A stretch of 64,000 nucleotides of DNA from Diphasiastrum complanatum (taxonomy: Eukaryota; Streptophyta; Lycopodiopsida; Lycopodiales; Lycopodiaceae), in assembly GCA_029204225.1 (NCBI GenBank), contig CM055106.1, forward strand, positions 20,498,959 to 20,562,958, written 5' to 3'. Position 1 is the stretch's first letter. The number at the start of each line of letters is the position of its first letter. Shown one piece after another: positions 10,222-63,960 of the stretch. A program made the translations under genes and the position numbers. Under the pieces are notes generated by a model. The model had not been told where the DNA came from, made no database searches, and was given only the letters and a program-made list of their open reading frames with translations.

Positions 10222-10222
10222 A

Positions 10223-19721: not shown

Positions 19722-19727
19722 TTGTCA

Positions 19728-19783: not shown

Positions 19784-19802
19784 ATCGAGCAAGCTTTCGG
19801 CT

Positions 19803-22800
19803 ATGGCGGAAGGAAAAATGCGAGCTCTGGTGTGCAGAAAGCTGGGCGATCCAACCCTTCCTTTGTCCCATGATTCGCCTCTCTACATCGACCCCGCCTA
19901 TCCCAGGCCCAAGCTCTCATCCCCCACTCACGTCAGAGTGCGCGTCAAGGCAGTGAGCGTGAATTATGCCACCCCGCTGCAAATCGAGGGCAAGTACCAG
20001 GAGAGGCCGCCGCTGCCGTTTGTACCCACTGGTGATTTCTCGGGGACTGTTGTGGAGGTAGGGGCGCAGGTGAAGGGTCTGAAGGTGGGGGATAATGTCT
20101 GTGGGATGGCCGCGCAGGGCGCGTATGCGGACGAGCTTGTAATAGAACAATCCTATTTGTGAGTTTCTTCCGGATTCTTTGTAGTGTCATCCAGTTTGGG
20201 TGATCAAAAAAAGCTAAACTGCTGTTGTTTTGGTATAGTAGGCAATCCTTTCTTTAAGGTGGATGATGATTGGCTTAACCAGTGCGTAGCATAGTTCCTA
20301 GGAATCTGTCTACCTATTCGTATTTATCAATGCTCAAATATTCCTTCACTCTCTTATTATGTTTTGAAAGCAATGCAACAAATAAATTTTGGTGCAAGCT
20401 TGATCGCTCAACAATCACATTAACAAACTGATTCTTCACCTCCGGGCTCCCTTCATCTCTTCTAAACTTTTTGTAATGTGAATGTGCCCGTCATTTATGT
20501 AGTGCTCAAAGGGCGTTGCACTAGAGTGGATCCTAGTCAGTCTCAGTTAGCTTGCTTATCCCACCAACACATGCTTAACCAAATACAAAATGAAAGAAAA
20601 CTAACCTGGGCATTCATCCATTATAATAACTTAGCATAAAGCCAAACAAGCATCCCCACAAGGTAACAACAACAAGCGTAGTCCCAAATGACAGTTTTTC
20701 CTGCAAGTCCCTAGGGCATAGCTTTTTCCCCAGTCAATCTGCATGCCTTATTTTTTTTAATTTAAATATGTTCGAAGTTGAATAACAGAGCTGAGCAATC
20801 TATGCATGCTTTGCTTCCTAGGGTAATTGGATTTGAAAGATCAATGTAGAAATGCAGCTATGACTAATTCAATAACTAATCCATCTGTTAAGTATCTCCA
20901 AAAAAGGATGGGCCCCTTCCAAAATAGGAAGTCCTTAAAAAATCTAGCATATTAGCATCTTAAGGATTCTCCAAAAAGAAGAGGGGGGACAAGGCTATGA
21001 TAGGTCTCTAGGGTGTCAATGATGAGTGTCTATGCGACTTTTCCTTTTTTTATTTTTCGGATTGTTAGTTTTTCAATTTTTTTTTAAGTTCCCATTGCCC
21101 CTTTTCCAATGCTTGATTTTGGGAATGACACCCATTTCTAATGCCCTCTTATTCTTATCCTTGCTTTGAGTTAGGTTTTGGTTCACAACTTTTTGCAAAG
21201 TAAATCAACAAGAGAGACTGGGTTTTTCTAGATGTAGCAATACTATGTTCATATAGCTAGTCATCACTACAAAGGCATCAATAGGCAATAGAATTCACAA
21301 TACTGAAAACGATTGAGAGAAAAGCGTTGGAAATTGCTAATTTCGGTGCTTGGCATTTGGCTTTGTAGGGCTTCATGTGACTTGCTTCAAATGTTGCTTT
21401 AATTTTACAATTGCATCTCTTCAGGTATTTGATTCCATCTGGTTGTGATTTAGTGGAGGCAGGAGGATTGCTTGTGGCTTTTGGCACATCTCATTTGGCA
21501 CTTGTTCATCGAGCTAATCTTGGAAGTGGGCAGGTATTTTCATATTGTCATATGGCTCAAAGCAATTATCTTGACAAGTGTTGGATTGTTTCTTTGATTT
21601 CAAGGTAGATAGTGCTTTAAACTTCTCCTTTATGGGAAGTCATTGTAACATGCAATTGTTCGTTCTTTTGGATTTGGACTATCTCATCGATCCTTGTTTT
21701 GCTAGCTTTTGTTGCCAAAGTTAGATGGTGGCATGATGCACTTCTAGATTTCAAATTTCTCATATAGGCTTACCTCATTTGAGCTTTGCATATTTGTCTT
21801 TGTATTGTAGAAACTCTTGGCATGTCTAGTTTAGTTTTTGCTCTTGGGGTCAAAGTGCTAGACATGATACCTCGCTTTTTTGAGTTTTGACCGTGAAGAC
21901 GTTATTCATTTATTTCGTATTGGCCCATCAATTATTCATGGTGCCACATTTTTTAGCAGCTGATAGAGAGGTATTGGGAACTCATAGAGTGGACTTCACT
22001 ATTTGCGGAACTTTGCCATCTTTGTTAGGTTCTTGGAAGTTTTGCTTAAAAAGTTCCTTTAGGGCTCCAATTAGTATATATAGTGTAGCCACCATTGAGA
22101 TGATAGTTACATTTGCTTCAATTCTCAAGCTCGTTGTAGGTGACTCATTGCAATTCTCAAGTTCAATGTAGGTGATTCACTGTCGCTCTTGTTAAGATCT
22201 AATTATACAAATTCTTGTTGGATATTGAGTCCATCACATCGATATTTATAGATAGTGATAAATAGTATCAACGTAGGACATGGTTTCATCTAGGAAAAAG
22301 TCATATAGTGGCAAAGACAACATGTTACTAGAATGCGATTATGTCACTAGTGGAGATGATAAGTTACAAAGGAAGTTTAAGAGTGGAAGGAGTTGTGTGC
22401 CAAGATAGACCAATAGAGAAATTTGAAAATAGTGGAAAAAGTTAGATTAGTACTTAGTGATCTTTTATTGTAAAGTTGCAAATTTTGTCCTTGGTCCTTG
22501 TGGTTATGGACTCATTTTGTATGAAGTATCGTTCAATCTAAATCTTGCAATGCACGACAAGGTGGTCTCCAATCTTCACGAGAATCATAATAACTTGCTT
22601 TCATTTGACTGAAGCAATGTTTCAATGGAAGATGTTGTAGATGGCTGCAATATAGTTAGATGCTCAAGTATTCTTTCTAAAAAAAAAAAAAATTTGGAAA
22701 CCATTCAGCCCTTGTAATGCCCACTTTGCAAAAAGGATATTATGATAGCAATAAAAGAGTGAATAGAAAATACAGTTGAGATATAATTGTTTATCACTTT

Positions 22801-30152: not shown

Positions 30153-30650
30153 CTAGACTTGTAATTCTGGTACATGCAAGACATTTGAAAGTATCTTAGA
30201 TTGATCATTTGCAAAGCTCAATCTTACTGTACCTTCACCTTTGATAGCTTGTGTGCTATTGTCGCCCAGATGAACATATCTCTTGGTACTGTAAGGTGTA
30301 TAGGACTTGAAATAGCCGATATGGCTGGTCATATGCTGTGGCTCCAGAATCCAAAACCATGAATTGTCGTTGGATGCTTCTTGATGGCTTGTCATGAAGA
30401 CATCATGATCCGCTCCTTGAATAGGATGTGGTGCTTTTGCAACTGCATTTTCCACTTGATTCGACTGCCCCTTGCTGCTGTTCTTAGCTTGTAGAATGCG
30501 GCAGTCTTGGATCTCGTGGTTGGATCACTTGTAGTATCTGCTAAAATAGCTTTTTCTTTAACAGTTGATTCGACTGCTCTTGATGTTGTGTTGGCTTCTG
30601 GTTTGACTTCGATGGCTTTGAGCATGTCTTCTTCTGCTTAGTCGAGCCTC
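30153..30650 (-). pseudogene. Copia gag tail/protease fragment
   Basis: The minus frame shows WILEPQHMTSH where the protease motif (normally DSGAS.HMT) should be, then VHLGDNSTQAIKGEGTV and LSNVLHVPELQ. The catalytic aspartate region is destroyed, and an upstream frame encodes a degraded gag linker. It lies head-to-head with the plus-strand gag that starts at 30748. Confidence 0.75.
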
Positions 30651-30663
30651 TCAAAATTGGTGT

Positions 30664-31250
30664 ATGATCAAATCCTTTTTTGAGAAAGAAAAACCATTTG
30701 TACTTGTTTTTTGGATCCATTACAAGTCAGTTTCTCAAGTAGTCATGGCATCCATGGGGTCCTTTCTCTTGGAGAAAGCTGAGAGATTGAACACCTCCAA
30801 TTATTATATTTGGGTGAGGATGGAATCAATTTTGATTATCCAATATGTGATGGATATTGTACTTGGACTTGGGGAGGAGCAACAAGTACTTCAAGAAGTC
30901 CAAAGGTACAAGAAAAGGGCAAAAATGGCCCTTCACTACATCAAGATGAATGTATCCAATGAAGTCTTGATAGAGATTAGTACTTGCACCTCGTCTAAGG
31001 AGGCTTGGGACACCCTCAAAGCCATTTATGAGGCTAAGAACACTTCTAGATTACTCACTCTTAGGAATCAAATCTTCCAAGTCTATCAAAAGAGTGATGA
31101 GAGTGCCTCAAACTTTGTCATGAGAGTAAAAGGTCTTCATAGAGAGCTTGCATGCATAGGAAACCATCTTAATCAAAGTGATTAAGTCCAACTCATCCTT
31201 AATGGATCAACCTTGGAGATACACCACCAAGTCAAAGTTGACTGATCTCG
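30664..31250 (+). pseudogene. Copia gag N-terminal fragment
   Basis: From ATG 30748 (MASMGSFLLEKAERL) the frame reads LNTSNYYIWVRMESIL, IVLGLGEEQQ, RAKMALHYIKMNVSNEVL, TSSKEAWDTLKAIYEAKNTSRL and RNQIFQVYQKSDESA, the classical UBN2-type gag. It stops at 31183-31185, followed in frame by VQLILNGS, so that stop is a point change. No knuckle or pol follows. Confidence 0.85.
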
Positions 31251-37100: not shown

Positions 37101-38669
37101 ATGCCTTGTACGAATGAAAAGTAATCTCTTCAGAAACTTTCTCTACCACTATTGTTTTTGGCATTGGATTTTCACGGACGGTGGACACTTTTGCAGATGA
37201 GTCACCATCAACTCCAGGATGAGCAGTCTCGTGCTTCCCTTTGGAGTAATAAAAATATTGATAAAAAGACATGATGATTGGCATGTATTTGCTTGTAGTG
37301 AATCTCAATGTTCTTCCATAAGTTGGATTGTTTAGCCAATATCTCTGCATTTGATCTCGAGCTCATGTCTTTTATGTACTTGCATAAAACTAATACAAAG
37401 TTAGTTACAATTAGCACAGAGATTGTATTAGAAAGTTTTGATTGAAACTATTCATAAAAGATCAAGTGTTTACAGTTACTTATGAGTTTACCATTGAAAA
37501 TGAATCTGAAGTTTGAAAGTACATCATCTTGTAGGAGCAATAGTTCCTGCCTGATGTAGTTTAGACTCCAATCTTCTTCCACCTCAACACACGTCAAAAC
37601 GACATCATTGTATATAATTTCAATATTTTTTCGTTTTGAATGTCCACTGGCTTCCAAGTCTTGATCGAGTGGCACCCATTTACCTTTATTTTTTTTCCAT
37701 CTTTGATAATGGAAGCATAAGCTCAACATTTGGTTTTCATTTTGATAACGGAAGCACATGGAAGACATTTTAATTCTGCATTCTATTTCTCCATCTAATC
37801 TTTTGTCCCAGTCTTCATCCATAAGTTTAGATAATAAACTATCTGATAAATTTTTGCATAGAGACATTGTTGGGATTCTGTGTACATTGACACTTGAAAA
37901 GAAATCCACAAATATAATCAAGGAAATAAACCAACTCAATCTGACTGTTTTGATCCCGTGCCATTTTTAATGAATTTTTTACATCATTATATATATCTTG
38001 TAACAAAATGATTCTGAAATTGTAGCATATGGTGTAATCTATTCATCACTTTCAAAACTAGGTAATGGAATTGGTACTATTTGTCCAAAATTTTCTTTTG
38101 TATCAAGAATGTACATTGATTCATAAAAAAAGATCCCACTATCAGCTAGATCTTTTGCAGTTCTACCTTGATATTGTAGTTGTCCAATATCAGTGTGAAT
38201 AACATCTAACACACCTGCTAAAGATCCATTGGGCTCCCATTCATTTATGTTGGATCGATATAAATCTGCAAGAGAAAAATGATAAGATTGGCAAGTTTAC
38301 TATCAGATATTTATGAATGACAAAAATTAAAGTATAAAAAATATCAATACTCATAATTGTTTTTTTGTGATCCTTACGGTTGAATCCTTGCACATTTATC
38401 TCTGAATACATATATGCATGTTGGACTAGAATTTCAGATATAGATTTTCCTCCTGATGATGTTCTAAAATCCAAAATTCTGGCCTTCCAATAAAATCGAA
38501 ATGATAGTTTTGACCTTTTCCTTTTTCGAAATGCTCTTCTTGATGATGGATGCATCAAAACCCAAGAGTTTTTTGAATATTTTCTTGGCACCCATAATCC
38601 ATTATCATCTGTCTCGTTGAATAGAAGCACATAGTCGATTGAGGAGCACGACTTCCTTGATGGCGCCAT
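34166..38669 (-). pseudogene. ParB-like domain + beta-class DNA amino-methyltransferase gene, multi-exon, decayed
   Basis: Read from 38669 down. Exon 1 (to about 38355) starts MAPSRKS and has NSWVLMHPSSRRAF, FYWKARILDFRTSSGGKSI. Exon 2 (from 38265 to about 37484) has DLYRSNINEWEP, FVDFFSSVNVHRIPTMSLC and CVEVEEDWSLNYIRQEL. Later exons hold SPIDPVTGTRPLEMREL (about 36520), then YFVMGDATLQRQ...VQEYPNSPYFKTIECKIYAGLTEEEAKLLAWDH in separate blocks (36360-36200), a ParB-like fold region. The methyltransferase follows: TLVIADIPYGYRLRG (about 35050; D-x-P-Y motif IV), a target-recognition-like segment, NPYHKTHRLINEL and ILDLCSGTGTT (about 34440; SAM motif I). Motif IV before motif I is the beta-class order of N6-adenine/N4-cytosine methyltransferases. 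Damage: TGG to TGA before ILDLCSG, a frameshift in a poly-A tract at 34410, stops near 36340, a frameshift near 37240, and a GT-to-AT donor after exon 1. Known families with this fusion are bacterial or phage; here introns show residence in a eukaryote. Confidence 0.72.
35530..35712. repeat. Cluster of GATACC/GGTATC palindromes in an intron
   Basis: At least four inverted motifs occur in 180 bp: TTGATACCTTGAAATCAATA, TTGATCTGAGGTATCAA, TTGATACCGAAGATCGATG with TATCGATCTAAGGTATCAA, and GATCGATACCGGGTATCGATC (about 35669-35689, near-perfect palindrome). The cluster lies between coding blocks of the ParB-methyltransferase gene. Confidence 0.75.
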
Positions 38670-39146
38670 TCATAATTTGCATGCAAAAATCTGAAACAAT
38701 GAACTATGAATCTGAAAATTTGCATAGACAAAAAGCCATGACTCTGAGAAAATATGTTGGCAAAAATTTGAAACACTGATATATTTGGCACCACAAATTA
38801 ACTCTGGTTAACCCTGTCAACCATGATTTGACAATGCATATACATTAATGGTACATCAATTTTCTCATCTCAACCATCTGTCAAATTCATTTTCAACAAT
38901 TTTTGATCTCTTTGGGCAGTAATGAGTTGGAAGGGCATGCCTCATCAACCAATAGCATTTCCACATGCTGCCCGACGAAACAACAATATATTTTAAAAGT
39001 TTTTATTTTATTTATATTTGGAACATTCTACGTTACGTAGAACCCCGATTTCAAGGTTTCAATTGGTCCACATGGCAACGAAAATAAGAAAAAAAAATAA
39101 AAAAGCATCTTTTTCAAAAGGCCCTCTTTGGGCTCTAAGTTTCTCT
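38670..39146. other. Interval upstream of the ParB-methyltransferase gene
   Basis: No gene. A near-perfect 17-bp palindrome TTCTACGTTACGTAGAA lies at 39026-39042. This could be a promoter site or an element end, but I found no partner copy. Confidence 0.4.
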
Positions 39147-39720
39147 AATGAGGCTCTTGAGATATGTTTCCTCCACATTAGACTATGGTTTGATCTACAA
39201 AGGAGAGGATCTAGCAATGGTTGCATTTTCAAATTTGGATTTTGCAAGTGATAAAGTGGATAGGAAGTCCACAAGTGCTTACACCATCTTTATTGGAGAC
39301 AATCTTGTATCTTGGTTATCCAAGAAACAAGATACTATCTTATTACATCATGTGAAAACAAGTACAAGGCCCTTACAACAACCACCAAAGAAGTTTTGTG
39401 GATCAAGAGGCTACTCATGGAGATAAGGTGCATCAAGGATGAAGATCTACCTATTGTAAAAAATGATAACATCTCGGCACATGATCTTGCAAACAATCCA
39501 ATATTCCATGCAAGAAGCAAGCATAGCGAAATAGCACACCACTTTGGTAGGGAGAAAGTCATTGGGAGAGAGATCAACTTGGAGCATATTGGATCATCAT
39601 CGTCATGTGTTGCAGATCTTCTCACAAAACCATTGCTCAATAGTGCTTTTGTCATGTTTAGATTTAATCTTGGCTTAATTTCAAAATCCATGTTAAAATA
39701 GATAGATATCTTTTAAGGTG
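39147..39720 (+). pseudogene. Copia RNase H / 3' end fragment
   Basis: RLLRYVSSTLDYGLIYKGED starts the RNase H region, followed by FSNLDFASDKVDRKSTSAYTIFIGDNLVSWLSKKQ. After a frameshift near 39340 come YKALTTTTKEVLWIKRLLMEI and IFHARSKHSEIAHHFGRE, then the C-terminus LLTKPLLNSAF. The RNase H D.DYAGD motif reads N-L-D-F-A-S-D. It leads directly into a polypurine tract (AAGGTGGAG, 39715-39723) and LTR. Confidence 0.85.
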
Positions 39721-45919: not shown

Positions 45920-47962
45920 CTAGTTTTTGTTCTCGGTGGCGATGGCGATGGCGGTGGTGGGAGGAGAAAGTAGTATGGTGGGAGAATAGGAAGGCAACCG
46001 TGCACTGAAGGCGATCTGGTAAACGCCCTCCTCCATTGCCTGTAGCAAACTAGATGGGCGCTTCAGGCATCTGGGCACCTTCACTTGACCTACATTCGCA
46101 CCTCCTGCCACACAACAGTCCATTAACTTCTCGAACGATCCTTTTTTCACCAGCCTTATTTCCAATGGCCCAATTGCATTCTCTCGTCTCCCCCTCCTGT
46201 ATGTACTGGCCAAGCTCTCTTCCATGACATAGCAACACTCCTTCAGCTCGTGTGCCTCAATAGGGGTGTCTTCTGCTAGCTCCCAGAAGATAACGTAGTG
46301 GGGTGGCTTGGATTCCAGGTCGGCGTAGCTGCTATAGTCCCTCACTATCTTGCGGGAGGACGAAGCTGCAGTTGTGATTGCGTTCTGTAGATCTTTCTCG
46401 TCTGTTTTGTCGGAATCAATGCTAAGAAGCACATTCTGACGGCACACGAAAAAGAATGTAGGAGACGCGTTGTAGTAGCCTGCAACTTTCAGAATGTCCC
46501 CCATTCTGTATCTGTAAAGACCTGAAAGGTATCGTAGAGAATTCGAATCGATCGTCAAAAACAATCCCAGAAAGACACAACCCACAGGTTCACAACTAGC
46601 ACACGATCTTATCTCGAAGTCAGGAGGAATTTGGCTGATAACCGAGCCTTCATGAGGTGTGGTCATATTTTTATAGCATACACCTTACTACAATAGCTTA
46701 AATCTAATTAATCATAGAACCGTGCAGCACACTGGTTTAAATGCTATTGTTTGCTATGCGTACACTAGTGTATAAGTTCTTTACAAGCTCTGAAGGAGTT
46801 CAGCAATATAGTCTACTTACCCGTGTCGGTAGTCACCAACAATTCGTATTCCTTACCCACTTGGACGTCAGTGAGATCAACAACTGCTTGAGAATCTATA
46901 CACAGGTCGGACGTTAGTTGCTCCCCGAATTCACTGCTTCGATCAATCGGAAGAAATTCGAAGTAGGCGGCACTTGGAGCGAGCATGTATGTGATTTCCC
47001 ATGGAGAGCATATTGGATTCAGATTGAAGCCAAGATATGTCTCAGAAGAAGCATAGACCATGGACACTATTTGGATCCCATCACTATAGTAATCAATTGT
47101 GGGGATATATTGCTGCATGGATCCACTTACAACAGTTTGTATTACCCTTGTGTTTGGCCAGAGGCGTTTGACGATTCCTTGCCACGATGTTTTCCAGCAT
47201 GCCACTCTCACACGACTTGCGAGCTCTGGATTAGGCCGCAAAACCCTGGCCATCGCTTTTCTAACAGAAAGGTTAGTGATTTTTCCATTAAGTTGTCCAC
47301 TTTCGAGATCTTCACATAAGTCTGCCCAATAATCTTCAATGCTTCGGATTATCCTTACGAATGTGGAGGCAAAGAAGCTACCCACATTTACCACTTCAGG
47401 AGATTGCATCAATCCACATAGCAGCTGGCAGTAGGTAGACTGAAAGGAATCAGTGCAAAGCAAAACTTCTGGCAGGCTCATCGTCAAATTGGAGAAATCA
47501 TTCCTTGAGGTTGATCTCTGTATGAGGCTTGTGATAGCAGTCTGTGTATTCAAGCCACAAGGGGTTATACCTTGTTCTCTAGCATAAAGAAAATTCAACC
47601 TCTTACCCTTTTTCAAATCAGGAAAGTGCCTGCACAAGACGTCCAATGCTCGTTTTAAAGCCATAAAACTGGCTAATACTTAGAAAGCAGTGAAATAGCA
47701 TCATGATCCTTAACATGACGATATTTAAATTTAGCTACTTGAGCAGTAAGTACCAAAAAAGATTTTTTCTGTAGTATGATATAGTCTTAAATTGACAATC
47801 TTACTTGTAAAAGACTGCACTTGTTATATTTCTCAATCTTTGGCTTCTTTCTGGATGACCGGCAGGCTTTGGGTAAAGCTTGTGCTCTCCAGTTGAGGTT
47901 CCAGAACTGCAAAAGTTAACTTCAGTACTGTGGGCAAAAAGGTCGGTCCATTGTGTGTGTCT

Positions 47963-49721: not shown

Positions 49722-50941
49722 TGGCTTCTAGAAGTCCTAGACCATGAAGCAATATTGTCTTAGTTTCTGTTTGTAATGAAAAAGACTCTGATGGCTCTTG
49801 GATACCATGTATCTATAGAAAATTTCACTGGGTTCTCAAGCATCCCTCATCAAGAGGTGTTTTTGGTAAAAAGAGAAAATCAAATATGGATTATAGGAAT
49901 TTTTGGAAAGGTAGAATTTTAGACTTCAAAGTTTCACCCGGTGGTCGATCCATTTCAGAGGTCTTGATTCAACATGTCTACATGCATAAGGAAATTAGAG
50001 TGGAAGGCGTAAGTTCAAATGACAGAAATGCAATTGTAAGTTTTGGAGAATTTTTTGCTTTGAGCTTTGCATTAATCATTTAGACGTGTATCTGAGTATT
50101 TAAATGACATATAGTTTTATGGATTTGTGCAGATTTGTATCCATCAAGCATAATTGAATGGCAACCTATACAATCCCTTGTCGGCATCATGGGCGTTATT
50201 CATCCTGATATTGTTCTTCTGCAATACAAGAACTGCTCCACGAGATCACTTTTGGATTCTTGTATTTTCTTCTATGATTCATTTTACACACCATCCAGTT
50301 TAGTGGAAAATTAGAGGGGATATCATTACCCTCTTTCTCAAGCGAAAAATGGATTCCTCCAGATTCCACCATAGCAGAGAGCTTCCGATCGAGGTTTTTT
50401 TATGGACATTCAAAACTGTATGAAATGTAGCACAGGTTCAAAAAACAATAGATTGCACTGGTTTCTGCCTTTTGCAATATTTGTAGATTTTTTTGTTGAA
50501 TGTAATATTCGTAGAACAGCGACAATGTTTATTTGTAGTGATTTAACAGACAATATGTTATCAAGCCTCCTTGATGGTCATTGGGATAAAAAGAGTGATG
50601 ACAATATCGAGTGCATAGTTAATAGATCGTCAATGAAATTTAGATATCTTATAGAAAAACAAGTGATTTCTTTAACATTTTATTCTGGAAGATGGTCCAA
50701 AGTTGGCAATGGATGGAAAGCATTGGATCAGGATTTTACAGCGAGTCATCAATATCAAATAGAAATCCAACTGAGGCAAAATAATTTTACTGTTACAACA
50801 ATTGAGGTGGAAGAAGATTGGACACTCGATCACATTCGATCAGAGCTTACCTTGCTGCAATATGATATTCCTAAACACTTATGTTTTCGAGTCAATGAGA
50901 GATTGGTAGGTGTATGTGTATTTATTTCAGTAGACATTTGA
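49722..50941 (+). pseudogene. ParB-like/methyltransferase gene copy, 5' part only
   Basis: This is a second copy of the N-terminal part of the gene at 34166-38669, here on plus. It starts MASRSPRP, then has a stop, then WVLKHPSSRGVF, FWKGRILDFKVSPGGRSI and the exon-1 donor AATGCAATT|GTAAG (about 50033). Exon 2 starts at 50133 with DLYPSSIIEWQP, followed by stops and then FVDFFVECNIRRTATMFIC and TTIEVEEDWTLDHIRSEL. The exon 1/2 splice site lies at the same place in both copies. ParB-like and methyltransferase parts are not found downstream; a convergent minus-strand gene begins within 450 bp. What this N-terminal region does is unknown. Confidence 0.65.
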
Positions 50942-51383
50942 AATGACTTTCAATGATTTTATTTAAACATGTTTCAGTGTTTTCAGTATTGCAATATTTC
51001 ATTTAAAATAATCTCAATGTTGATATTGTCTAACAAGTTTCTTTGGTGTACAAGTAAGACCAAGACAAGAAAGTCGCATACAGTGCAAGGACTTAAATAG
51101 AAGCATACAAATTGTTGAACCTGCATAAAAATTGGGATGATAGACAAACAACAACAATGTATTTTTTCAAAAAAAAGGAATACAAATAAGTCTCAAATGA
51201 CTTCAAGATTTCATCGAACAATTTGTATCTAGTATTTTGAAAAATGTACATTGGTTTTAAAAACGATATCATATATTCGTGGCATTCAGTAATAGCCCAC
51301 TTTCTATTTGCCTATCTGTTGTTCTATGCATCATCATGTGATGATATATTTCTATGTGTCTGTCGAAACTTATGTGACAATAT

Positions 51384-52784
51384 TTACATTTCAATCAAAG
51401 GTGCCTGAGGCATATCCTCAAGCACTGCAACTTCATTCACAGATCCCCTGGTAGGTTCATCCGAGGCACTCTCATGCTTGTAGGGCATTGCACACGATAG
51501 TAAAATTTCCAACATTTCATGCTGATACTGATGAATCGCATTTGTTGATACCTCAGGACATTGGAACTGCAAGATAAAATATCGAGTGCATGTATGTATT
51601 AGCCAATGTTTAAAAAAATATAAATTCACAAAATTAACAATATATCATCAAGATACTGGAACTTGAGAAAAATACCTCACGGATACTAGCATCTGGAGGT
51701 TGCACCATATACCAATCCAAGAACGATTTGACATTCCAGATTGAATGCCATCCGCAGCTGAAAGCATCGTCTTGTTGCAAAGACTGAGAAATCACAGCGA
51801 AAAATTGTTAAATTATAATTCAATATAATTCTAAACTCCATGACATCATGGAAATAAAATACGTAAAAAGATTCTTTTTACCTTTGCAACAATGATTTCA
51901 TAGATTTAGAAGTCAAAATGGAACCTAGTGAGTTTCCGATGGAAATCTCGTCGGCCAAATGGTCTTCAGCAACCAGCATTGATCTGCATTGCAAACATAA
52001 TGTTCATAAAAATGTCAGTAGAGATTAGGACAATCATAGTATTCATAGCAACATAATAAACAAATCAACAGAAAGTTGAAATTAATAAATGACAAAACTA
52101 GTGATTATGAGTGAATCAAAAAGTTCAAGCAATATTAAACCAAATAAGCTATAACTTATTTAAATGCACATATTTGTCTTTTTCGATAACCTCCTATGGA
52201 TGATAGATCACATATATCCTTGGTTACCAGTCTTTTCCTCTTGTTGCTTCTGACCTTTTTGTTGAGCACATCCATATCTTTAACAAGAGACAAATATGAG
52301 ATACGCATGGATTGAAATGCAGGTCTTATCTCATCATTACTAGTTGTAAAATGACACAAAGAAGATTTCAACGTTTGGATCTCCTTCTTGAACATATCAT
52401 TTTCTTCGAAACAAGTTTTGAACTTTGTAGATTTGTCTTCGCACTCCTTTGATATTTTCCTTAATCTCTCTTCCAGATAATGTATTCTTTGCATTGAATG
52501 TGCATTTCCATAGAGCATCAAATTCTCACAGTAACCCAAAAGGCCATTTTTGCCATGACACATATAGATTATTAATTGACTCATCGAATGAAAATCCGGT
52601 GTTGCAATGAATTCGGATCAATAGGATACAATGTTCCTGATGACCATAAACATACATGCTTTAGCTTTTCCTCCCTATATCGAATCTTATCAGAAGTTGA
52701 CAATTTGGATTGCTTTGAATTTCTTGTCCCGAGCGGAGGATATTCTGGTGACAAATCCACATGAAGATGATATAGCTTTGTCAT
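51384..52784 (-). pseudogene. T-family gene with Ulp1-like protease exon
   Basis: From 52784 down. Exon 1 (to about 52165) has LYHLHVDLSPEYPPL, GTLYPIDPNSLQHR, then in a shifted frame HGKNGLLGYCENLMLYG, a coiled-coil stretch, and NKRKRLVTKDICDLSSIGGY. Its donor reads AT instead of GT. Exon 2 (51983-51882) has SIGNSLGSILTSKSM. Exon 3 (51783-51676) has SLQQDDAFSCGWHSIWNVKS, which resembles the Q-x-D..CG catalytic end of Ulp1/C48 SUMO proteases. Exon 4 (51566-51384) is an acidic tail ending in a stop. Exons 1 and 2 match the plus-strand gene at 55936, so the two share a front end but differ behind. The His and Asp of a full Ulp1 domain are not visible, so the protease call is tentative. It is convergent with the gene copy at 49722-50941. 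Confidence 0.55.
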
Positions 52785-53029
52785 TGGTACAATATTATAG
52801 TAACAAACAACACAATGACAATAACAGAGCTAGAGATGGTGCTGAACACTTGTTCGACCCTGCCCTGGAGATAGAGATGACATAGGCTTTGTTTCTGAAA
52901 TGTCACTCCTAATTCAAATTTTTGAGTGTTCCCAACTATTGGGAGGGAATATTTCGACATTTTGAAAATTATACTTTAATTGTGGCTAAGCACCAGTGAA
53001 GTTTGATGTGACTAAAGTAAGTTACATTC

Positions 53030-53148
53030 ATTTTCATGGAAAGTAGTGCGGGCAGATGCATAAAGAAGTTAGAAAATCATATTTTAATAACTTTATTGTT
53101 ATTTTTCTCTCTCCTACATGGCATTTTGGGCCCATATTTTCTCTAATG
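53030..53148. repeat. Left arm of an inverted repeat
   Basis: Reverse-complemented, this arm reads CATTAGAGAAAAT...GGCCCAAAA...TGCCATGTAGGAGAGAGAAA...CATCTGCCCGCAC. It corresponds to 55252-55375 (CATTAGAGAAGT...GGCCCAAAA...TGCCACGTAAGAGAGAGAAA...TATCTGCCCTCAC). It lies upstream of the T-family gene at 52784, as the other arm lies upstream of the T gene at 55936. Confidence 0.6.
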
Positions 53149-54577
53149 AATTCCATGAATATCTGAATGTACAACTTGAAAAGGCTTTGTAGATCTAGCA
53201 TAAGGTAGTCTACATGACTTTGACAAAGCACGAGACTTATAAACATGATTGATGCTACTTAAGAATTTTGAAAGACCAATTACAACTTGCTTCTTAGCCA
53301 TTACCTCCAATGACTTGAAGCTGAGATGCCCCATCCTTTTAAACCTCATGGATAGGTATTTGCTCACTTGCAACACATCCAACTTGGTTAGCAATAACAC
53401 AAGCATCTAGTTTGAACAACTTCCCTTCCTTTCACCTTTTGCAATTAAGATATCTTTCCTTTTGATCATGCAAGCATCTCCATCAAACTCAACTTTGAAA
53501 CCTTTACTTAGAAATTCACTCACGCTAAGTAAATTCTTGGTAATGGAAGGTACGCACAAAACATCCTTCGAATGAACATTCCTGTTTGTAGAGAGAGAAA
53601 TAGGAATTGTGCCAATCCCTTTGATTGCAAGGCTCCCCATCATTGGCCGTGTAGATCACCTTCTATTCATCTTCATATGCCAACAAAGAAGTGAAGTCCT
53701 CTTTGTGAAAAGTCATATGAAGACATTACGAAAGCATCATCATTTGAGTTTTGAACATCCAAACCATCTTCATCATGAGTAAGATTACCTTGTTTGTCTC
53801 CTTGATCTCTCTTCTTCTTGTAGCACTCACTTGCAACTTTGTCCTTTTATCACAATAGAAGCACTTGAGCTTTGATCTATCTTTCTTTTTGCCATTTGAA
53901 GAAGCCTCCTCTTGATCTTGCCCTTTAGACCACCTACTTTTGCTTTTGCCCTTGATGAACATAGCCTCCTCTCCAACTTGAGATGCTGATGAAGATCCAC
54001 CTCTTACTTGAAGCCTATATTCTTCATTGATCAAGATCTCTTGAAGATCAATAAAACTTGGCAAAGTTCTTTGAATGGCAAGAGTTTGTACAATATTAGC
54101 ATGATCATCCAACAAACCATTAAGAATAACTTGAACAAGCTCTCCTTCCTTAATGCTCTCATCAATGCAAGCTAACTCATCATTCAAAGGCTTCACTCTT
54201 AAAACAAAAATATTTGGACTTTCTTCAATCTTTTGCAAAATTTAAAATATTTGCCTTCTTAGAGTCAACACTCTAGAAGTAGACTTGGATTCATAAAGCT
54301 TCTTTAATGAATTTCAAGCATCATTTGATGAAGTACTCTTACTAGCTTCCTTGAGAAGTTCATTGGTAACATTCATCTTGATCATGTGTAGAGCTCTTTT
54401 GGCCCTCTTGTCATACCTCATTTGTTCTTGTGTTGTTGGCCTCTCCTCCAAACCTACAACAATATCCAAAACATCATTCATCTCAAGAAGTGATTCCATC
54501 CTCACTTTCCACAATGAATAGTTGTTTGAGGTAAGCCTATCATTGGCTTCCAACATGTATCCACTTGATGTAGCCAT
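53149..54577 (-). pseudogene. Copia gag-protease-integrase start, frameshifted
   Basis: From 54577 down: MATSSGYMLEANDRL, SLWKVRMESLLEMNDVLDIV, ALHMIKMNVTNELLKEASKS; then after a stop LNDELACIDESIKEG and ILNGLLDDHANIV. The zinc knuckle is cut by a frameshift (CFYCDKRTK). Protease-proximal LCVPSITKNLLSVSEFLSKGFKVEF comes next, then the pre-integrase block MGHLSFKSLEVM and VVHSDI at the left end. It is closely related to the copy at 9288-10221. It ends exactly at the inverted-repeat arm (53148/53149) without an LTR, so it is a truncated copy. Confidence 0.85.
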
Positions 54578-55251: not shown

Positions 55252-55375
55252 TCTACATTAGAGAAGTTCCAAGGCCCAAAAGGGTTGTCTAATAAATGCC
55301 ACGTAAGAGAGAGAAAATTGTCGGATTTTAAAACGCCGACCAAGTTTTTTATCTGCCCTCACAACTCCGATGACT
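55252..55375. repeat. Right arm of the inverted repeat
   Basis: Partner of 53030-53148. The two arms face each other across the Copia fragment. They may be terminal or promoter-proximal sequences of the T-family elements on each side. Confidence 0.6.
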
Positions 55376-55935: not shown

Positions 55936-58797
55936 ATGTCTAAATATCATCTCCATATTGATCTTCCCACTGAATATGCTCCACTGTCGAGAAAAAATCT
56001 GAAAAGATCCACTTTACCAGTTCACCAAAGGACGGAAGACAGGAAACATTGTGATCTATGGGTTGATGGAAGTTTGTATCCAATCGATCCAAGCTCAATG
56101 CAACATCCAAATTTTAGATCAGTCACACAACTCATACTGTTTTTGTGTGAAAGACACAATGGTCTATTGGGTTATTGTGAAATATTGAAAAGTTATGGCA
56201 TTAGTAATTCAATGAAAAAAATCCATTGTTTGGAAAATATGTTGAATAATCTGCTTACTGACTACAGAAAAAAAAACAACTCTTTTGTTGCAAACAAAAG
56301 AAGAGAATGAACTTGAAGATAGAAAATTCTCGTTTGCAAGATATGATGTTAAACCTTAACCAAGAAACTGACAATATGAAACTAATTGTACAAACATTGC
56401 GTACCCATATTGTCAAATAAATGTAGAAGTAAACACATTACGGAAGAAAATACTGAATAATAAGCGAAAAAGAGTTATTTTAAAAAGTATTGACGAGCTT
56501 TCATCAAGTGGGGGTCAACGGAAGAAAAGAATATATGCTTTCAAGTAAGATTATGTTTTAAACTATTCATGTGTTTTGTTTCATCTAGCACATCAATGAT
56601 TGTGAATTGTTTTTTTTCTAAATCTTATTTTTATTTTGCAGATCAGCTTAAATCACCAATGAAAATCTGAAAGACAAGGACATGATTGGAAAGTCTTTGA
56701 GTGCAGTACTTACAGCCAAGTCAACGATGAGTCTACCAGGAAACCAACGATATTCTTGAATCAAGTCCAAGATTGCAGAGGCCCTTATGGGCGAAGTCGG
56801 CAAGATCATTGACCGAAAATTGATACAAGGAGCATGTGATTAATCTGGTATTAGCAGGGATGCATATGACACAATGCTTAAAATTATCAAAGAGGCATTT
56901 GGACAAGTACATATAAAACAATTTCCTATTCCTCGGCCCTTTCAAATCAAATTAGAGAGGGATGCGTTAAACAGGGTTTGCAAAACATCATTGGTATTCC
57001 TTACCATATCAATTAAATTTATAACTCAAAACATGGCACTTTGTCATATGATTCCACCAACAATATGTTTGTGGATCTAAATAATTTACTGAGATTTATT
57101 GTAAAGTTTTATGGAATCACAAATGAAAGTGTTGAAAAATTGATATTAGTTCTTAAGTTAGATAAATCAGAAGTAATAAAGGGACAAAAGCTAGAAAGGG
57201 TTAGTGTTACACTTATGAATGGAGCATTAAGCAATACGATAAACTCGGAGAGTCTTGATTTCAGTGTGCAGTCCGAAAATGATATTTGGTGGTTGGCAGC
57301 TTTCCAGGTTTAAATCTATTCTATTGAGTACTAGCAACTAATTCATTTTGAGAATTTATGGTTTTGTGTTTTAAGCTAATATTGTTTTGTTATTATAGGT
57401 CTAAGTTCAATTCTCTTAAAATAGTTCATGATTTTGTGTTTCAAACAGGTTTTTAAAGAAGATCATGACATTCTATTTTGGATTTTTAGTGAAACAGAAT
57501 ATCCAGAGATAATTAAGAATCATATGAGCAACACACCACTCAATGTTCCTGGAATAGGTGATTTTAAGGTGGAATGGCATTTGGCTGGAGACCTAAAGTC
57601 GTTGAAGTGCATGTTCAACGTTTCACATGGAGCAAATTCAAAACATCCATGCCTCTATTGCATGAAAACTACACATGACATGTTGAAGAGCACGAGAGTT
57701 TCAAGGGATATAGAAGATCCGACTTGGAAACCAGTATTATCGATTCCGCTTAAAAATGTTCACATTTGTACACTACATGGAGAGGTTAGAATTATCGAAA
57801 AATTGATATACCTTCATTTTGCTTAGAATACTAAGCCATAGTCATTAGCCAAAAAAGCAATAGCTCGATTGGAAGAAGTTTTATCAAAAGCGGGACTTCA
57901 TAAAGGACACGTTAAAATACAAAAGGATGAGAAGCTTTCAGGGAAAACAAGAAACATCCCATGCAAACCAAGTATAGGAGGATCCAAAGCTCGTCGTTTC
58001 TTATCAAATCATTCCGGAAAACAAACTAAAATCCAATACTCAATTTGGATAGATGTACACAATGCCACAAAGAATTTTGAAGAAAAGGAACAACGAGGAT
58101 TAAAAAAGTTAAAGTCTGGACAAAGCTTGAAACATGGTCAAATTGCTTAGAAAAGATAAACTGTCTGATACTGATGTCCTACTAATTGAGAAATCAACAA
58201 TTGAGTTTGTGGATGCAGTTAAAGACGCCTGGGGTGAAGATCATATTACGCATTATATGGTAAATCTCTTTTCAATGTAACTAGCTCTTCGAATTATAAT
58301 CTCATTGCACATATGCTAAATTTAAAATGATTAATATGACAATATTTGTATCTCTGATATTGCAGCACATTTTACGACATCATGCATCATTTTTTGCAAA
58401 AGCTTACGACAGTCTAAGTATTTGGTCATCACAAGGAATGGAGAAATCGCATTGGCAAGCCAGAGCAGCAATTCATCGAAATACACAACATGGTGGAACA
58501 TCTCAATAAAATAGTTACATCATCCATCTATTTCAATGGTTCTACATGCGTATCAAATCCGATATAAAACTAGATCAACAAATTATCAGAAATTCAGAAA
58601 GGCGTGCAAGTTTATGGACGAAAATAATATTGATGCAACACTCAACCCATAGTAGTTTTCATGATATCAGACGAAAAAAGTATATGTATTATATCGCATC
58701 ATTTCAAGTACAATGCAAGGCAAAATCATTGTTTCTCTTTGTCTTTAATGATCAGCTTTGCTGTGTGGTCATGAAATTTTTGTTTTCTATCATATAA
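55936..58797 (+). pseudogene. T-family transposase-like gene with CxxC insert and GMEK motif, decayed
   Basis: Exon 1 (55936-56544) has KYHLHIDLPTEYAPL, GSLYPIDPSSMQHPN and ERHNGLLGYCEILKSYG, then a coiled coil and, after frameshifts, SGGQRKKRIYAF. Exon 2 (56642-57307) has GKSLSAVLTAKSTMS, SRDAYDTMLKIIKEAFGQV, FPIPRPFQIKLERDALN, then LKLDKSEVIKGQKLERVSVT. Exon 3 (57449-58259) has VEWHLAGDLKSL, HPCLYCMK, LKNVHICTLHGEVRIIEKL and, near the end, DAWGEDHITHYM. Exon 4 (from 58366) has HILRHHASFFAKAYDSL and WSSQGMEKSHWQARAAIHR. The order of a D-bearing strand, CxxC insert, THYMHIL and GMEK recalls uncharacterised transposase-like proteins I remember from invertebrates and arbuscular fungi (memory, unverified); a DDE/RNase H-fold transposase is my best guess. 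Several stops and frameshifts make it inactive. It is convergent with the S gene at 58800-60312. Confidence 0.6.
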
Positions 58798-58799
58798 AT

Positions 58800-60312
58800 C
58801 TAGAAAATCAATGGATTTTCTTTTGCTCATGTCAATGTATCCGGAGAAAACAGCTAAGGAGGAAGACCTTTTTGAAACTTCCTCAGCTACATAGCCAAAT
58901 ACTTTTATGACAATGTCTCTCTTTGCAAAAATAATTTTATATGTATTTGAAGGGTATTTATGCCCATTCAAGAAATAGGATAACACTTTAATTGCCATTA
59001 TTATTGTCGCGGCATCTGAAGAAAATTTGCTAGGATGAATGCAAATCTCTTTATTTACAAAGCACCTCAAATAATTGGACAGAGATGAATCCCTTTGTCG
59101 TGATCCTTGGCCTTTCCTCAAATATTCTTGCCTTGTTGCAAAGGCATCCACCTTCACAGTAGCTTGTAAAATACGAGCAAAGGTCACATCTTGAAAAACA
59201 AAATAAATAAATTTGAATAAAAATCTCATTCAAATAAAACCAGATTTACCTACCAGATCACGCTCATCAGCTTGAATAAGTGCAGCAGTATGTAGACCAT
59301 GACCAGCAACAATGGTCGTCGAAGCAGTGGATGGATTAGTTTTCGAAGACTGTGACACATATTTGCTTCGGATTCTCAAAAATTCCTCCTCACAGGGCAA
59401 ATTTGCCTGGTATGCCCTACTTTCAAACATGATTGACTTCAGGGCTTCAGTCCCATCCAGCCATTCATCTCCGTCCTTGTAATCAATAGAAGCACGTAGA
59501 TCATCATCACCATCGAGATCTATGAAGTTCCCGAATTCTTGATGAGATTAGACAAAATTGATAATATTTCGTCCTCCCTCAGATCAAGAACATCTCCAAC
59601 ATCATTCAGAGAGAGGTATGCAACACTATTCATGTAATAAATCGAGGAGAGTCTTGGTTTTGTCATATGGATTCACGTTAGATAAAGAAGAAATGGACAA
59701 TGCACGAGACTCGGCTGGGTCGTACATTGCTGCCAATCTTGCTTCCTCGTCAGCACCCAAGGTGTCATCAACAATAGCTGACTCTGATATCACAGAATCA
59801 GTTGATGATGAGGCACTCTCAATGCTTAGCCTCGAAGTTCCTGCCTCCTCAAGAACAAGAGCAGAAAGATAAAACACAAAGCCCATGCCTTCCTGCAAAA
59901 AGCGACATGATCGATTGCATTGTTCACAATGGACCACATGTTTAAAATCACTCACTATTTTCGTGAATTGTCGGTTGTGGCTTTGCTTTGAAGATGGTTG
60001 GGCAAGTACCAGGTCATGGAAATGGATGAATCATAGATTATCCATTATCAACATAGACTGATTCAGACTATCATAATACTCTTTATACAACGCTGGAAAA
60101 TAGGATTTATGTTCTGAACCAAACCTCTTAATATCAAAAGACATATTGAAATACGTCTTATACTGACCTATGTAGTTACCAACACCGGATTCAACAAGGA
60201 AGGCGTGCAACGCAGAATCAAAAATATTAGAAGATGAGGCGGCCATCTCGAAAGTATGACCAGTAGGGCCGAGTATCACTACGACGCGGGGTGGCAGGGA
60301 GTTAGAAGACAA
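58800..60312 (-). pseudogene. S gene: acidic protein of unknown function, convergent to transposase
   Basis: From 60312 down: MAASSSNIFDSALHAFLVES, then HNRQFTKIVSDFKHVVHCEQCNRSC in separate blocks, an acidic serine-rich stretch (SASSSTDSVISESAIVDD), then FIDLDGDDDLRASIDYKDGDEW and LPCEEEFLRIRSKYV. An intron lies near 59250-59195, followed by TFARILQATVKV, IIMAIKVLSYFLNGHK and SGYIDMSKRKSIDFLDLYDR. Frame changes and stops occur near 60040 and 59625-59545. The same blocks, and the intron at the same place, occur at 62476-63960, so the gene is a regular partner of the T gene. I recognise no domain; the CxxC...C pattern might bind zinc. Confidence 0.55.
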
Positions 60313-61283
60313 TCAGGCACTCCTTATGTGATGGCGATATTGGTGAATGACCGGATATCAGAACGACGCGAGGGATCCAAGATCGTCATGAATCTGAAAT
60401 AGATTCTCACGTGGTAGTGATACTACAAAGAACTAGTAGTGTTGACAAACCAAGAGCTACAGGGAGTGAAAATCTAAAACTTAGCGAAAGGTTTTAACTG
60501 ATCAGACAACATTTATATAGCTAAAACCAATAAAATCCAAGCCGTACATGCGTCGATCCAACAACGGATCAGATCTATGACGCATAATATAACCGTCCAC
60601 ACGTGCGAGACCATATGTGCTACAATACACGTCAATCTGCCATTCGGCCACGTGCCCACACGTGCAAGCTAATACTTGCTAGAACACACGTCACCAAACC
60701 ATTCGACCACGTGGCCACACGTGCAAGTCCACACATGTGTTGCCCGTACATGTAGTTTCACACGTGTGGATACAGACGTGTAGTTTCACATGTTAGGTAT
60801 TGATTGGGCCACGTGCCCACACGTGCGAGCTTATACGTGCAAAAATACATGTCGCTGATCCATTCGGCCACGTGTCCACATGTGGGATCCCACACGTGTT
60901 CATCTAGACGTGCAGTTTTACACGTGCATATACAGACATGTGGTTCCACACGTCAGTTAGTGATTGGGCCACGTGTCGCAAGTATTCACACGTGCCAACT
61001 TTTTTTCCTTAAATAAGTCCATTCCCGGGGATTGTATAGGTTTTCACGTAATTTGCTTTCACATTTGATTGCTTCCATATGACTTGCATTCGTGATATCG
61101 CCATCACGCGAACGACCTCATCCCCAAGCATGTTCCTTACACCCTCTCGCGTCGTAGCGATATTAGCCTAACTCTCCCAGTATCGCCATCACGCAAGCCC
61201 CTTCCTCTCCCCGCCTGACTCTGCTACTCTCTCGCGTGGCAGTGATATCACCCTCAGAGTTCCCAGTGTCACCATCACGTGAG
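60271..61283. promoter_or_regulatory. Scattered inverted copies of a TCGCGTNGTAGCGATA motif
   Basis: About nine copies in alternating orientation: forward near 60328-60340 (GTGATGGCGATAT), 60408-60424 (CACGTGGTAGTGATACT), 61144-61164 (CTCTCGCGTCGTAGCGATATT) and 61228-61250 (CTCTCGCGTGGCAGTGATATC); reverse near 60273-60291 (GTATCACTACGACGCGGGG), 60354-60373 (GATATCAGAACGACGCGAGG), 61092-61114 (GTGATATCGCCATCACGCGA), 61180-61197 (GTATCGCCATCACGCAAG) and 61266-61283 (GTGTCACCATCACGTGAG). They lie on both sides of the CACGTG array, between the divergent S gene and the histone-like frame. Confidence 0.75.
60595..60995. repeat. CACGTG-rich higher-order repeat, 161-bp period
   Basis: ATT(C/G)GRCCACGTG starts at 60642, 60701, 60803, 60862 and 60963, that is spacings 59, 102, 59, 101: a 161-bp unit made of two subunits, present about 2.1 times. 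Around 19 ACGT cores (CACACGTG, CCACGTG, AGACGTG) lie in 400 bp. CACGTG is the plant G-box/ABRE core, but the array could equally be element structural DNA. Confidence 0.85.
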
Positions 61284-61342
61284 ATTATCTAGCTTTCTCT
61301 TCTTTGTATCTCTGTCCTCTCATGATATAGATATCCAACCTC

Positions 61343-61825
61343 AATGGCACGGACAAAGCAAACCACTAGGCTTACCAGTTTTGTTCAACCATCCCGTCCC
61401 CAGACTTCTGAACCCGTACGTTTGCAAAGACGCGAAAGACCTTGCCGTCCATGGTTGAGGGACATCAGGGCATTGTAGAGGAGCACCAAACTTCTAATCC
61501 CGAAAGCAGCCTTCTACCGGGCTATGAGGGAGGTTACACAAGATATGACCACTCATCTGCCCTATGCAGTGAGTTGGAATATCACTGCATTGGAGGCACT
61601 CCATACTGCATACGAGGACTTCCAGACAAAAATGTTTGAGGATTCGATGTTGTGCTCCATTCATGGCAAGAGGGTGACACTGATGCCCAAGGACATGCTT
61701 CTTGTCATGCGGCTTCGTAACACCTATGACAACATTTTTAAGTCTGGCTTCACACAAAGGCAACTTCCTCTTGAAAGGGGGCCTGTCCCACCCCGAAAAA
61801 AGAGAAAGCAAAATGAAAAAGATTA
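61343..61825 (+). pseudogene. Histone H3-like (CENH3-like) reading frame with one internal stop and C-terminal extension
   Basis: ATG at 61343 gives MARTKQTTR, the exact start of histone H3 up to Q5-T6, then a divergent proline-rich tail. The fold region has LRDIRAL, then TAG where H3 has glutamine (YQKST), then STKLLIPKAAFYRAMREVTQ, SWNITALEALHTAYEDF and MFEDSMLCSIHGKRVTLMPKD, ending MRLRNTY. A lengthened loop 1 with tryptophan and the DSMLC.IH..RVTLM block are closer to plant centromeric H3 than to canonical H3. A 32-residue extension follows, ending in a basic PPRKKRKQ segment, then TAA at 61823. Apart from the TAG the frame is open. No intron is needed, whereas plant CENH3 genes normally have several, so it may be a captured processed copy. 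It lies between the CACGTG array and a T-gene fragment. Confidence 0.75.
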
Positions 61826-62395
61826 AAGCTTCAGTTACTGATAACATTATGAATAAAATTGGAAAAATATTGGACACTATATTGGTTCAGAGGGCATGTG
61901 ATTTTTCTAGCATCAATAGACAAGCATATGCGACAATGTTTAAGATGATTAAGGAGGCATTTGCACAGGTAAGTATTAAAAAGTTTCCAATACTTGAGAA
62001 AAGATAAATTTTCAAATATTGATGTAAAATGATACAGAAAACAACTAGTGAATTTGTGGATGCAGCTCAAAGTGCATGGGGTGTAGATCATATAACACAT
62101 TATATGGTAAGATTCTGATGTTACATTAGTATAGACAAACATGTGCAATTAATTTAGATGCTTTGGTATTGATTTAGATTTTGTTTTTATGACATGCAGC
62201 ACATATTACGGCATCATTCGACATTCTTTGCAAGAAATAGTGGAATGGAAAAATCTCATTGGCAAGCAAGAGTGGCATTTCATAAAAGTACACAACATGA
62301 TGGGACTAGCACAAAGAATAGCTATATATTGTAACTTTTCCAATGGTTTTAAAGTAGAATTCTTTTTGTCATTATACAAAATCGATGAATTATAA
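61811..62395 (+). pseudogene. Internally deleted T-family transposase fragment
   Basis: KMKKIKASVTDNIMNKIGKIL and VQRACDFSSINRQAYATMFK, then MIKEAFAQVSIKKFPIL, match the exon-2 segment of the gene at 55936 (SRDAYDTMLKIIKEAFGQV). About 40 bp later TSEFVDAAQSAWGVDHITHYM (about 62043-62106) matches the end of exon 3. After an intron (acceptor at 62199), HILRHHSTFF and SGMEKSHWQARVAFHKSTQH match exon 4. The CxxC core of exon 3 is missing, so it is a deletion derivative. It overlaps the end of the histone-like frame in another frame. Confidence 0.65.
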
Positions 62396-62475: not shown

Positions 62476-63960
62476 TTACAAAGTACAATTCTCCAATATC
62501 AGCTCTTCTTCCGACATTTTCTCTAATGAAAGTTGCAACTTAGAATCATGCAGCAATTTTCTTCTTTCGTACGGATCCAGGAGCTCATAGTTTTCATGCT
62601 TACTCAGATCAACATAGGCAACATACAATGCAAAATGAGATGATCTGAGCATGGAATTCACTAGTCCATATCCTAAAATTTTAAGTGCAATAGTTTTCAA
62701 TAATTATGTACCCTATTAAAATTATGTCCTCCAAGAAAATGAGAAAGTGCCTTGATTGCCATAATCATTGTATCACCATGTTGATGAAACTTTGAATGGG
62801 CAACACTTATCTCATCATTCTTGAAGAACTTCAGATAATGTCCCAGTGCATGATCTCTTGAAAATTCTCCAGCAGAAGATCTTTGCCCTCCTCGACAAAT
62901 TGCAAAATCATCAAGGAAAATTGTTTCCTGAAATGAAGAAATGCAAAGTAAGCTCCAGTATAAAATCTGACATAACGGATCTACTAGTACATAATAAAAT
63001 ACAAAACTTACGCATTCGGCTTTGTCTTCCTTGATTATTGTCTCTCCATCAATATTATGTCCACCTTTCGATGTCAATAAGGTTGGTGAATAGATAGTTG
63101 GTTTTGGAAAACCAAGCTGACTTTGAAATCTGAAAAACTCCTCTTCAAACGGAAGATCATCTTCTTTTTGGTGCATTTCCTCCACAACCATTTTCAAACA
63201 ATCTTTTCCTGAATAAAACTCATTCTTATTTACATCATCAACACCAGGGAGAAGATTATCAACATCAAAATCAATTATATCTGAAAATTCATAAAGCTCT
63301 TTGCTCAAAATGCAAAGAGTCTTAGGCTTTGTGAAATCAAAAAGATCCGATATAGTGTCAAAAAAGAATTATGATCTATATTATATATAGGCAATGTGAT
63401 TAGAGATTTATCAGAAGGAGAAAGGGTAGTGGTAGTTCTAAGGCCTATAATCGATGCCCTATTTCGACCAGAATCAAAATCTGTACAATCATCTAAACTA
63501 ATGCTTGTATCAATAAAAAAAAGGTTCTATATCTACAGGCTTAGACTTGTCAGAATTTGTATCGCTAGAAGAAACAGCTTCAGAAGCAGAAGGGGCAACT
63601 TCCAAATCGTCAGAAATATTTAACAAAAAAAAAAAAAACAAATGCAAACTGAAACTCTACAAATCTACATTTCTTATTGTGTATTTGACAATTATCTACA
63701 GACTTGAAATCATTATGCAACTTGGTGAACATTCTGTCAAGCTTAGCTTTATAAGTATGCTTGTCGAGTGCCACCAAGTCTTAATAATGAATCATGTCCT
63801 TATTCTGAGATCTAAACAAGGGGGTATTGAGCAGAGACTTAAATTTGAGATAAATCTCAGAAAATGCTTCCACACTAGAACCCTCTGTACTAGAAGGAAG
63901 AACAAAAAAAAAAAGGAGAAAAAAGTGATTTGAAATTCAAGGAAAGGTATATTTGTTGGA
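62476..63960 (-). pseudogene. S gene, second copy, convergent to T fragment
   Basis: From the right: MFTKLHNDFKSVDNCQIHNKKC (about 63720) matches FTKIVSDFKHVVHCEQCNRSC of the first copy. Acidic DDLEVAPSASEAVSSSDTNS follows, then ELYEFSDIIDFDVDNLLPG and LPFEEEFFRFQSQL. An intron (donor after KEDKAEC at about 63013, acceptor before 62930) sits where the first copy has one. Then MIMAIKALSHFLGGHN, a stop near 62700, and KILGYGLVNSML...AYVDLSKHENYELLDPYERR. Poly-A runs and frame changes interrupt the N-terminal part. The gene may extend past the right window edge. Function unknown. Confidence 0.55.

Follow-up and report, generated by a model that had tools for sequence, protein, structure and literature searches.

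The question raised by this locus is how a frame resembling histone H3 came to lie among transposase remnants, and whether it is a centromeric-histone (CENH3) relative, as a preliminary description made from the letters alone had proposed. The window analysed is a stretch of 64,000 nucleotides of Diphasiastrum complanatum (contig CM055106.1, positions 20,498,959 to 20,562,958). The H3-like frame within it belongs to a terminal inverted repeat (TIR) DNA transposon family that has its own H3 gene and is spread through this genome, and represents a decayed copy of that gene. In the best-preserved and fullest copy (B25), the genes between the TIRs are K(+), T(+), S(−), H3(+) and D(−), T being the transposase. 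The classification as a DNA transposon with accessory genes, a known kind, is secure, and the anatomy is well supported; the function proposed below is read from sequence. That H3 is a gene of the element itself is regarded as close to certain.

H3 genes in a family of DNA transposons

The frame lies on the plus strand, is intron-free, and extends from an ATG at 61344 to the end of its stop codon at 61826, one base higher than the previously described span (61343..61825). It starts with MARTKQTTRLTSF... and its translation runs from MARTKQTTRLTSFVQ... through to ...PPRKKRKQNEKD, with a single in-frame TAG at codon 45 (61476–61478); both the single TAG and the absence of introns had been noted correctly. 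The open part (61479–61823) matched the Pfam family Histone (PF00125) with 69.3 bits (E 4.5e−19, cut-off 26.4), so the frame is not due to chance; the element H3s of L014 and L028 scored 98.3 and 92.6 bits, also above the cut-off. The DSMLC.IH..RVTLM block is present, and loop 1 is four residues longer than in canonical H3 and contains a tryptophan. The basic C-terminal extension also exists, but it is the remainder of a longer one. In particular, the H3 frame of two close relatives that were read (L033 and L034) extends about 200 amino acids beyond PPRKKRKQ, while the homology of the window H3 to them reaches only to 61811. From this point on lies another remnant, made up of T and S pieces, which corresponds to the adjoining transposase remnants already remarked upon. 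Therefore, the window copy has lost D and its right end, and its basic tail is what is left of the longer extension.

Copies of the gene were searched for in the whole genome (1.74 Gb, 5176 contigs). The histone-family search yielded, among the best 150 of 6325 candidates, 13 canonical H3 at 164–165 bits, a long series at 95–110 bits and three partial matches at 83–84 bits. In the search with the window H3, all of the best 150 of 6833 candidates (window included) were 75–100% identical to it, 61 of them without an internal stop, and both searches together placed H3-like matches on every one of C1–C23. Loci were read over 10 kb around 20 H3-like matches from the histone-family search, chosen mostly for long open frames, with additional reads of the flanks of four loci and of two nearer relatives of the window copy. 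Besides the window's type (W), three more H3 types were found: A (10 loci, MARTKQTARDPRV...), with a long proline-rich N-terminal part and the histone fold last; B (9 loci, MDRRKQTRRDFFSP...), with the fold followed by an extension of about 190 amino acids; and C (L028, MARTESTARATTT...), also with the fold followed by an extension. The H3s of these divergent subfamilies are 37–46% identical to that of the window. The polyproline and Q/E-rich N-terminus preceding the fold in the A type (L009–L012, L015, L017, L019–L022) is a very unusual H3 layout.

At least one partner gene lay within 10 kb in 21 of 22 H3-like loci, and at least two in 20 (T in 16, S in 19, D in 16 and K in 6), whereas none was found at the 8 canonical H3 loci (of 13) where 3.4 kb were searched. 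Moreover, 32 of the best 150 H3 matches were preceded on their own strand by one of the best 150 T matches, in 27 cases at a distance of 3.06–3.84 kb, and five had T in another order or orientation. Any T within 12 kb was found for 40 of these 150 matches, compared to 0.28 (maximum 3) at random. These link counts are a lower bound, as both lists hold only the best-scored parts of 6833 H3 and 10,755 T candidates. Thus, repeated H3 copies flanked by T and S genes occur elsewhere in the genome, and the locus is neither isolated nor placed with canonical H3 pseudogenes. A copy 98% identical to the window H3, with one TAG and T 3.8 kb upstream, was observed about 0.9 Mb away, at C15:21452431 (+), and may be the product of a segmental duplication.

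The TIR of the B elements (CATTAGAGGAGTTCTCAATATCAAAAAG..., beginning CATTAG) matched over 35/35 bp in B14 (8681 bp) and 27/30 in B25 (9305 bp), and TIRs were found at homologous ends of several copies of the B family; in the W subfamily only TIR-like single ends were seen. K was looked for in B14 and not found. Allowing at most one mismatch, the TIR pattern of the B type, a sister subfamily of the window's, occurred 1881 times in the genome and its reversed control 0 times, a count that takes in all such ends, with or without H3 in the copy. No convincing target-site duplication (TSD) was found in the seven B-family TIR pairs, the one 3-bp match (TCA) being possibly due to chance. Some TIR elements, such as Spy, are reported to lack TSDs. 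The CACGTG array previously reported beside the frame is real, but it is not a separate neighbour: it occupies the element's own S–H3 interval and is probably the shared promoter (a G-box array) of both genes. Such motifs numbered 15 in 1.1 kb in the window and 4–8 in the same interval of five related copies of the W and B types, compared to a background of 0.07 per kb in window positions 1–60246, and 0 in the one A-type interval measured. No Pfam family scored above the cut-off in S of L018 and L020, nor in D.

Between the two branches B1 and B2, purifying selection on the histone fold is strong, with ratios of nonsynonymous to synonymous substitution rates (dN/dS) of 0.07–0.19 in 10/10 pairs (dS 0.45–0.58), which argues for an element gene rather than cargo. 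It was the most constrained stretch among those measured between branches, the values being 0.43–0.62 for the C-terminal extension, 0.52 for the T core, 0.27 for the S exon and 0.54 for D. Within B1, dN/dS was 1.27 for the T core, 0.48 for the S exon and 0.26 for D, and the pooled value of nine aligned A copies was 0.56. Furthermore, dS differs strongly along the element, which indicates that its parts have recombined; in D it was three to four times lower against L023 than against L018. Overall, the TIRs, the co-linear partner genes, the copies across the genome and the evidence of selection support the earlier suggestion that the frame is carried by a mobile element.

Element remnants and neighbouring genes in the window

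After the TIR-like end at 55256, the window shows the order K-T-S-H3, and L034 is co-linear with positions 57128–61811 at 91%. The distance from this end to K is 689 bp, compared to 526 bp in B25. The features found were the following:

55256..55290 (+): left TIR-like end of the H3-carrying element, CATTAGAGAAGTTCC..., with 13/14 bases equal to the B-family TIR CATTAGAGGAGTTC; weak when taken alone (E 2.5)
55945..56545 (+): gene K, coiled-coil-like, degraded (tblastn with K of L028, pieces of 48% and 32% identity)
56742..58545 (+): gene T, transposase of predicted RAG1/Transib fold, broken (tblastn; exon-like blocks 56742–57310, 57449–58259 and 58366–58545)
58759..60246 (−): gene S, accessory, degraded (tblastn with S_B, 27% across 512 columns, E 1.7e−38)
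60600..60994 (no strand): CACGTG (G-box) array in the divergent S–H3 interval, probable promoter (15 CACGTG in 60247–61343)
61344..61826 (+): H3-like gene (TAG 61476–61478; homology to relatives ending at 61811)
61807..62349 (+): second element remnant, T with its middle deleted (tblastn pieces 61807–61992, 62026–62106 and 62200–62349)
62506..63870 (−): S gene of the second remnant (tblastn)
52159..53148 (−): another copy of this family in inverted orientation, represented by gene K and a TIR-like end (tblastn, K 52784–52159; TIR-like end 53148)
49996..51892 (+): D-side end of this inverted copy (gene D at 50129–50911 by tblastn; 91% to L033 6816–8719, downstream of the L033 H3)
37478..39150 (−): one more copy, represented by gene D and a TIR-like right end (D 38278–37478, 57% to D_B by tblastn; TIR-like end 39150)

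The core block of the window T (C15:20556467) contains two TAG codons, and the T tail reads QGMEKSH. Elsewhere in the window, Pfam matches identified a GH3-family gene at 45923–47679 (−) (193.6 bits for the N-terminal and 120 bits for the C-terminal part), probably a host gene; an ADH_N domain (alcohol dehydrogenase GroES-like domain, 51.9 bits) at 19677–20159 (+), perhaps the first exon of a host gene; and Copia-type retrotransposon gag frames at 2637–4109 (−) and 30622–31182 (+). In addition, two gag-like reading frames at 9452–10249 (−) and 53726–54241 (−) share a 77% DNA repeat.

Putative role of the element histone

Seven H3 sequences from this genome were aligned, with residues numbered as in H3, together with P0128, a database protein of another source with a similar layout; its fold and C-extension make it a probable relative of the transposon H3s. 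F67, E97, D106, H113, R116, T118, D123, R129 and R131 were kept in all eight rows and R83 in seven, being lost in the dead window copy, while R63 was replaced by P or L in all of them. As H113, R116, D123 and other such residues are kept, pairing with H4, the H3–H3′ bundle and the main DNA contacts look possible, given the usual roles of these residues. The start of the tail was readable in 20 of 23 copies, among which K4 was kept in 19 (the C type having E) and K9 in none: the position held D or G in A, D in B, alanine in C and L in W. K27 corresponded to a gap in each of the seven tails aligned, the A tail lying outside that alignment.

The transposase matched no Pfam family, but its predicted fold matched both RAG1 and Transib, and its core was recognized as RAG1-like; T presents the predicted fold and an end-motif of RAG1/Transib-type DDE transposases. 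Taken together, the best explanation, which we judge slightly better than an even bet, is that the element makes an H3 that acts on its own chromatin and either keeps the element expressed or marks it for its transposase. On this explanation, H3 would be produced from the divergent G-box promoter common to S, pair with host H4, and enter nucleosomes or the transposition complex on element DNA. The resulting chromatin might be a poor substrate for H3K9/K27 silencing, because the tail keeps K4, not K9, and K27 falls in the gap mentioned above. A nucleosome-type role of the product is reasonably probable, and a self-supplied H3 would likely package or protect element chromatin; that anti-silencing is its main benefit is suggested only tentatively. 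A wider proposal appears rather unlikely, namely that a RAG1-fold lineage outside the known plant superfamilies, inserting without TSDs, uses its own H3 to build nucleosomes that cannot be marked at K9 but keep K4 (with an intact ARTKQT start in two types), thus controlling its own chromatin and perhaps guiding its transposase by the mark. RAG2 reads H3K4me3, which offers a parallel for a mark-guided RAG-like transposase.

Several observations weigh against these proposals. The window H3 copy is dead, E94 is lost in W and C, and K79 is lost in all rows. Exact ARTKQT was found in 6/20 tails, all of them A or W, while B tails start with DRRKQT (once DKRKQT) and C with ARTEST; therefore, imitation of the free end of H3 is not a general feature. 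P0128, the probable relative, has K9 as well as K4, and the loss of K9 need not be selected, as the entire tail beyond position 8 diverges and drift after this position could give the same pattern. Moreover, dN/dS of the fold within branches was not uniformly close to 1 (0.28–1.53 in B1 with dS 0.04–0.17, and 0.21 in one B2 pair), and the between-branch dS of T was 0.05–0.16, compared to 0.45–0.58 for the fold. Finally, the RAG1 kinship of T rests on a predicted fold (predicted local distance difference test, pLDDT, 75.5, last exon left out): the T profile gave no match to PDB sequences at E up to 1, and hhalign of T with RAG1 reached a probability of 4.2% (p 0.0099) at the catalytic-Glu end.

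One alternative is that the transposon captured a CENH3 gene, whose product, loaded at centromeres, directs insertion to these sites or allows the element to hide in them. The LLIPxAPF and EDS/KDF motifs are similar to those of plant CENH3, and in a tree of about 100 columns, including sequences of two plant CENH3s and human CENP-A, the transposon H3s formed one group (support 94/91 without P0128 and 81/55 with it) that adjoined the two plant CENH3s with 68/73. However, this support is weak: a tree holding them with canonical H3 was 8.2 log units worse and not rejected (approximately unbiased, AU, test, p = 0.083), nor was one holding them with human CENP-A (AU p = 0.49), so that descent from CENH3, and with it the description as a centromeric-histone relative, is a possibility. 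The long loop 1 with a tryptophan was shared by the window subfamily and P0128 and absent from types A, B and C, the length relative to H3 being +4 in the window subfamily, +1 in B, +0 in A and C, and +8 in P0128. B-type TIR ends do cluster on C1: among the first 100 of the 1881 places, all of them on this contig, 28 fell within 2 Mb (65.0–66.7 Mb), whereas 2000 random draws gave 12 at most. Such clustering could reflect a centromere, heterochromatin or local duplication. On the other hand, a second cluster exists, the regions at 64.97–66.68 Mb and 95.5–98.6 Mb holding 28 and 20, respectively, of these first 100 ends (which reach 98.6 Mb), and no satellite was found in two 3-kb samples of the first. 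H3-like matches also occurred on each of C1–C23, and a host CENH3 was looked for in this genome and not found. Overall, CENH3 capture is considered improbable.

The fold might instead act within the transposition complex, by bending DNA or by dimerising, and not as a nucleosome component, to which the mutually similar C-terminal extensions of the W, B and C types, the altered alphaN and the constant link to T would conform; with the H3–H3′ and DNA-contact residues typical of nucleosomal H3 being kept, such a role is given a low, though not negligible, probability. That H3 is a host-captured passenger, useless to the element, seems very improbable: transposons do capture gene pieces (Pack-MULEs, CACTA, Helitrons), and the gene is intron-free like a retro-copy, but the same H3 gene recurs with the same partners in divergent subfamilies and shows purifying selection between branches. 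A canonical H3 pseudogene beside unrelated transposon remnants, which the stop codon in the window copy might recall, was refuted by the 150/150 scored relatives at 75–100% identity, many with T at a fixed distance, and by the separation of the window H3 from this genome's canonical H3 in the tree; its probability is practically nil.

Known systems and significance

If the product forms nucleosomes on its own element, this would be a new kind of element. Mobile DNA normally depends on host-provided histones, and host silencing of transposons works largely through histone marks, so that an element with an H3 of its own would evade this silencing directly. A self-supplied H3 would also naturally give rise to new H3 variants, centromeric ones possibly included, and a RAG1-fold transposase with accessory genes in a plant-type genome bears on the spread of the RAG/Transib lineage. 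These claims can be tested by expression and chromatin profiling in D. complanatum. No report of a transposon-encoded H3 family was found in the literature searched, a limited search that does not establish absence from print. A land-plant transposon review gives six plant TIR superfamilies and contains the term 'transib' 0 times (PMC9033089).

The present element differs from RAG1/RAG2 and ProtoRAG in several respects. Elements of the Transib/RAG kind have a 5-bp TSD and CAC-type termini, neither of which was found in the B family, where the TIR begins with CATTAG; as seven TIR pairs lack a convincing TSD, it is not a standard Transib/RAG element. Furthermore, RAG2-like kelch or PHD domains were not seen in S or D (no Pfam family above the cut-off), while the histone gene and the plant-type host are features of the present element. 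Compared to Transib, TIR and TSD are likewise different, and the extra genes are its own. Plant CENH3 and CENP-A share with the element H3 a divergent H3 fold and some residues of alphaN, of loop 1 (window subfamily) and of the alpha2–alpha3 part, but not the C-terminal extension of about 200 amino acids (W and B types) or the status of a transposon gene. A functional parallel may be VANC of the Arabidopsis VANDAL21 transposons, an anti-silencing protein that leads to loss of DNA methylation: in both cases the proposed task of a transposon gene is to lift the silencing that the host imposes on the element carrying it, although the tool proposed here is a histone. Finally, the bracovirus H4 and the Marseillevirus histones are also histone-fold proteins related to those of the host and encoded by a mobile genome, but their carriers are viruses, while here the carrier is an integrated, multi-copy TIR transposon.
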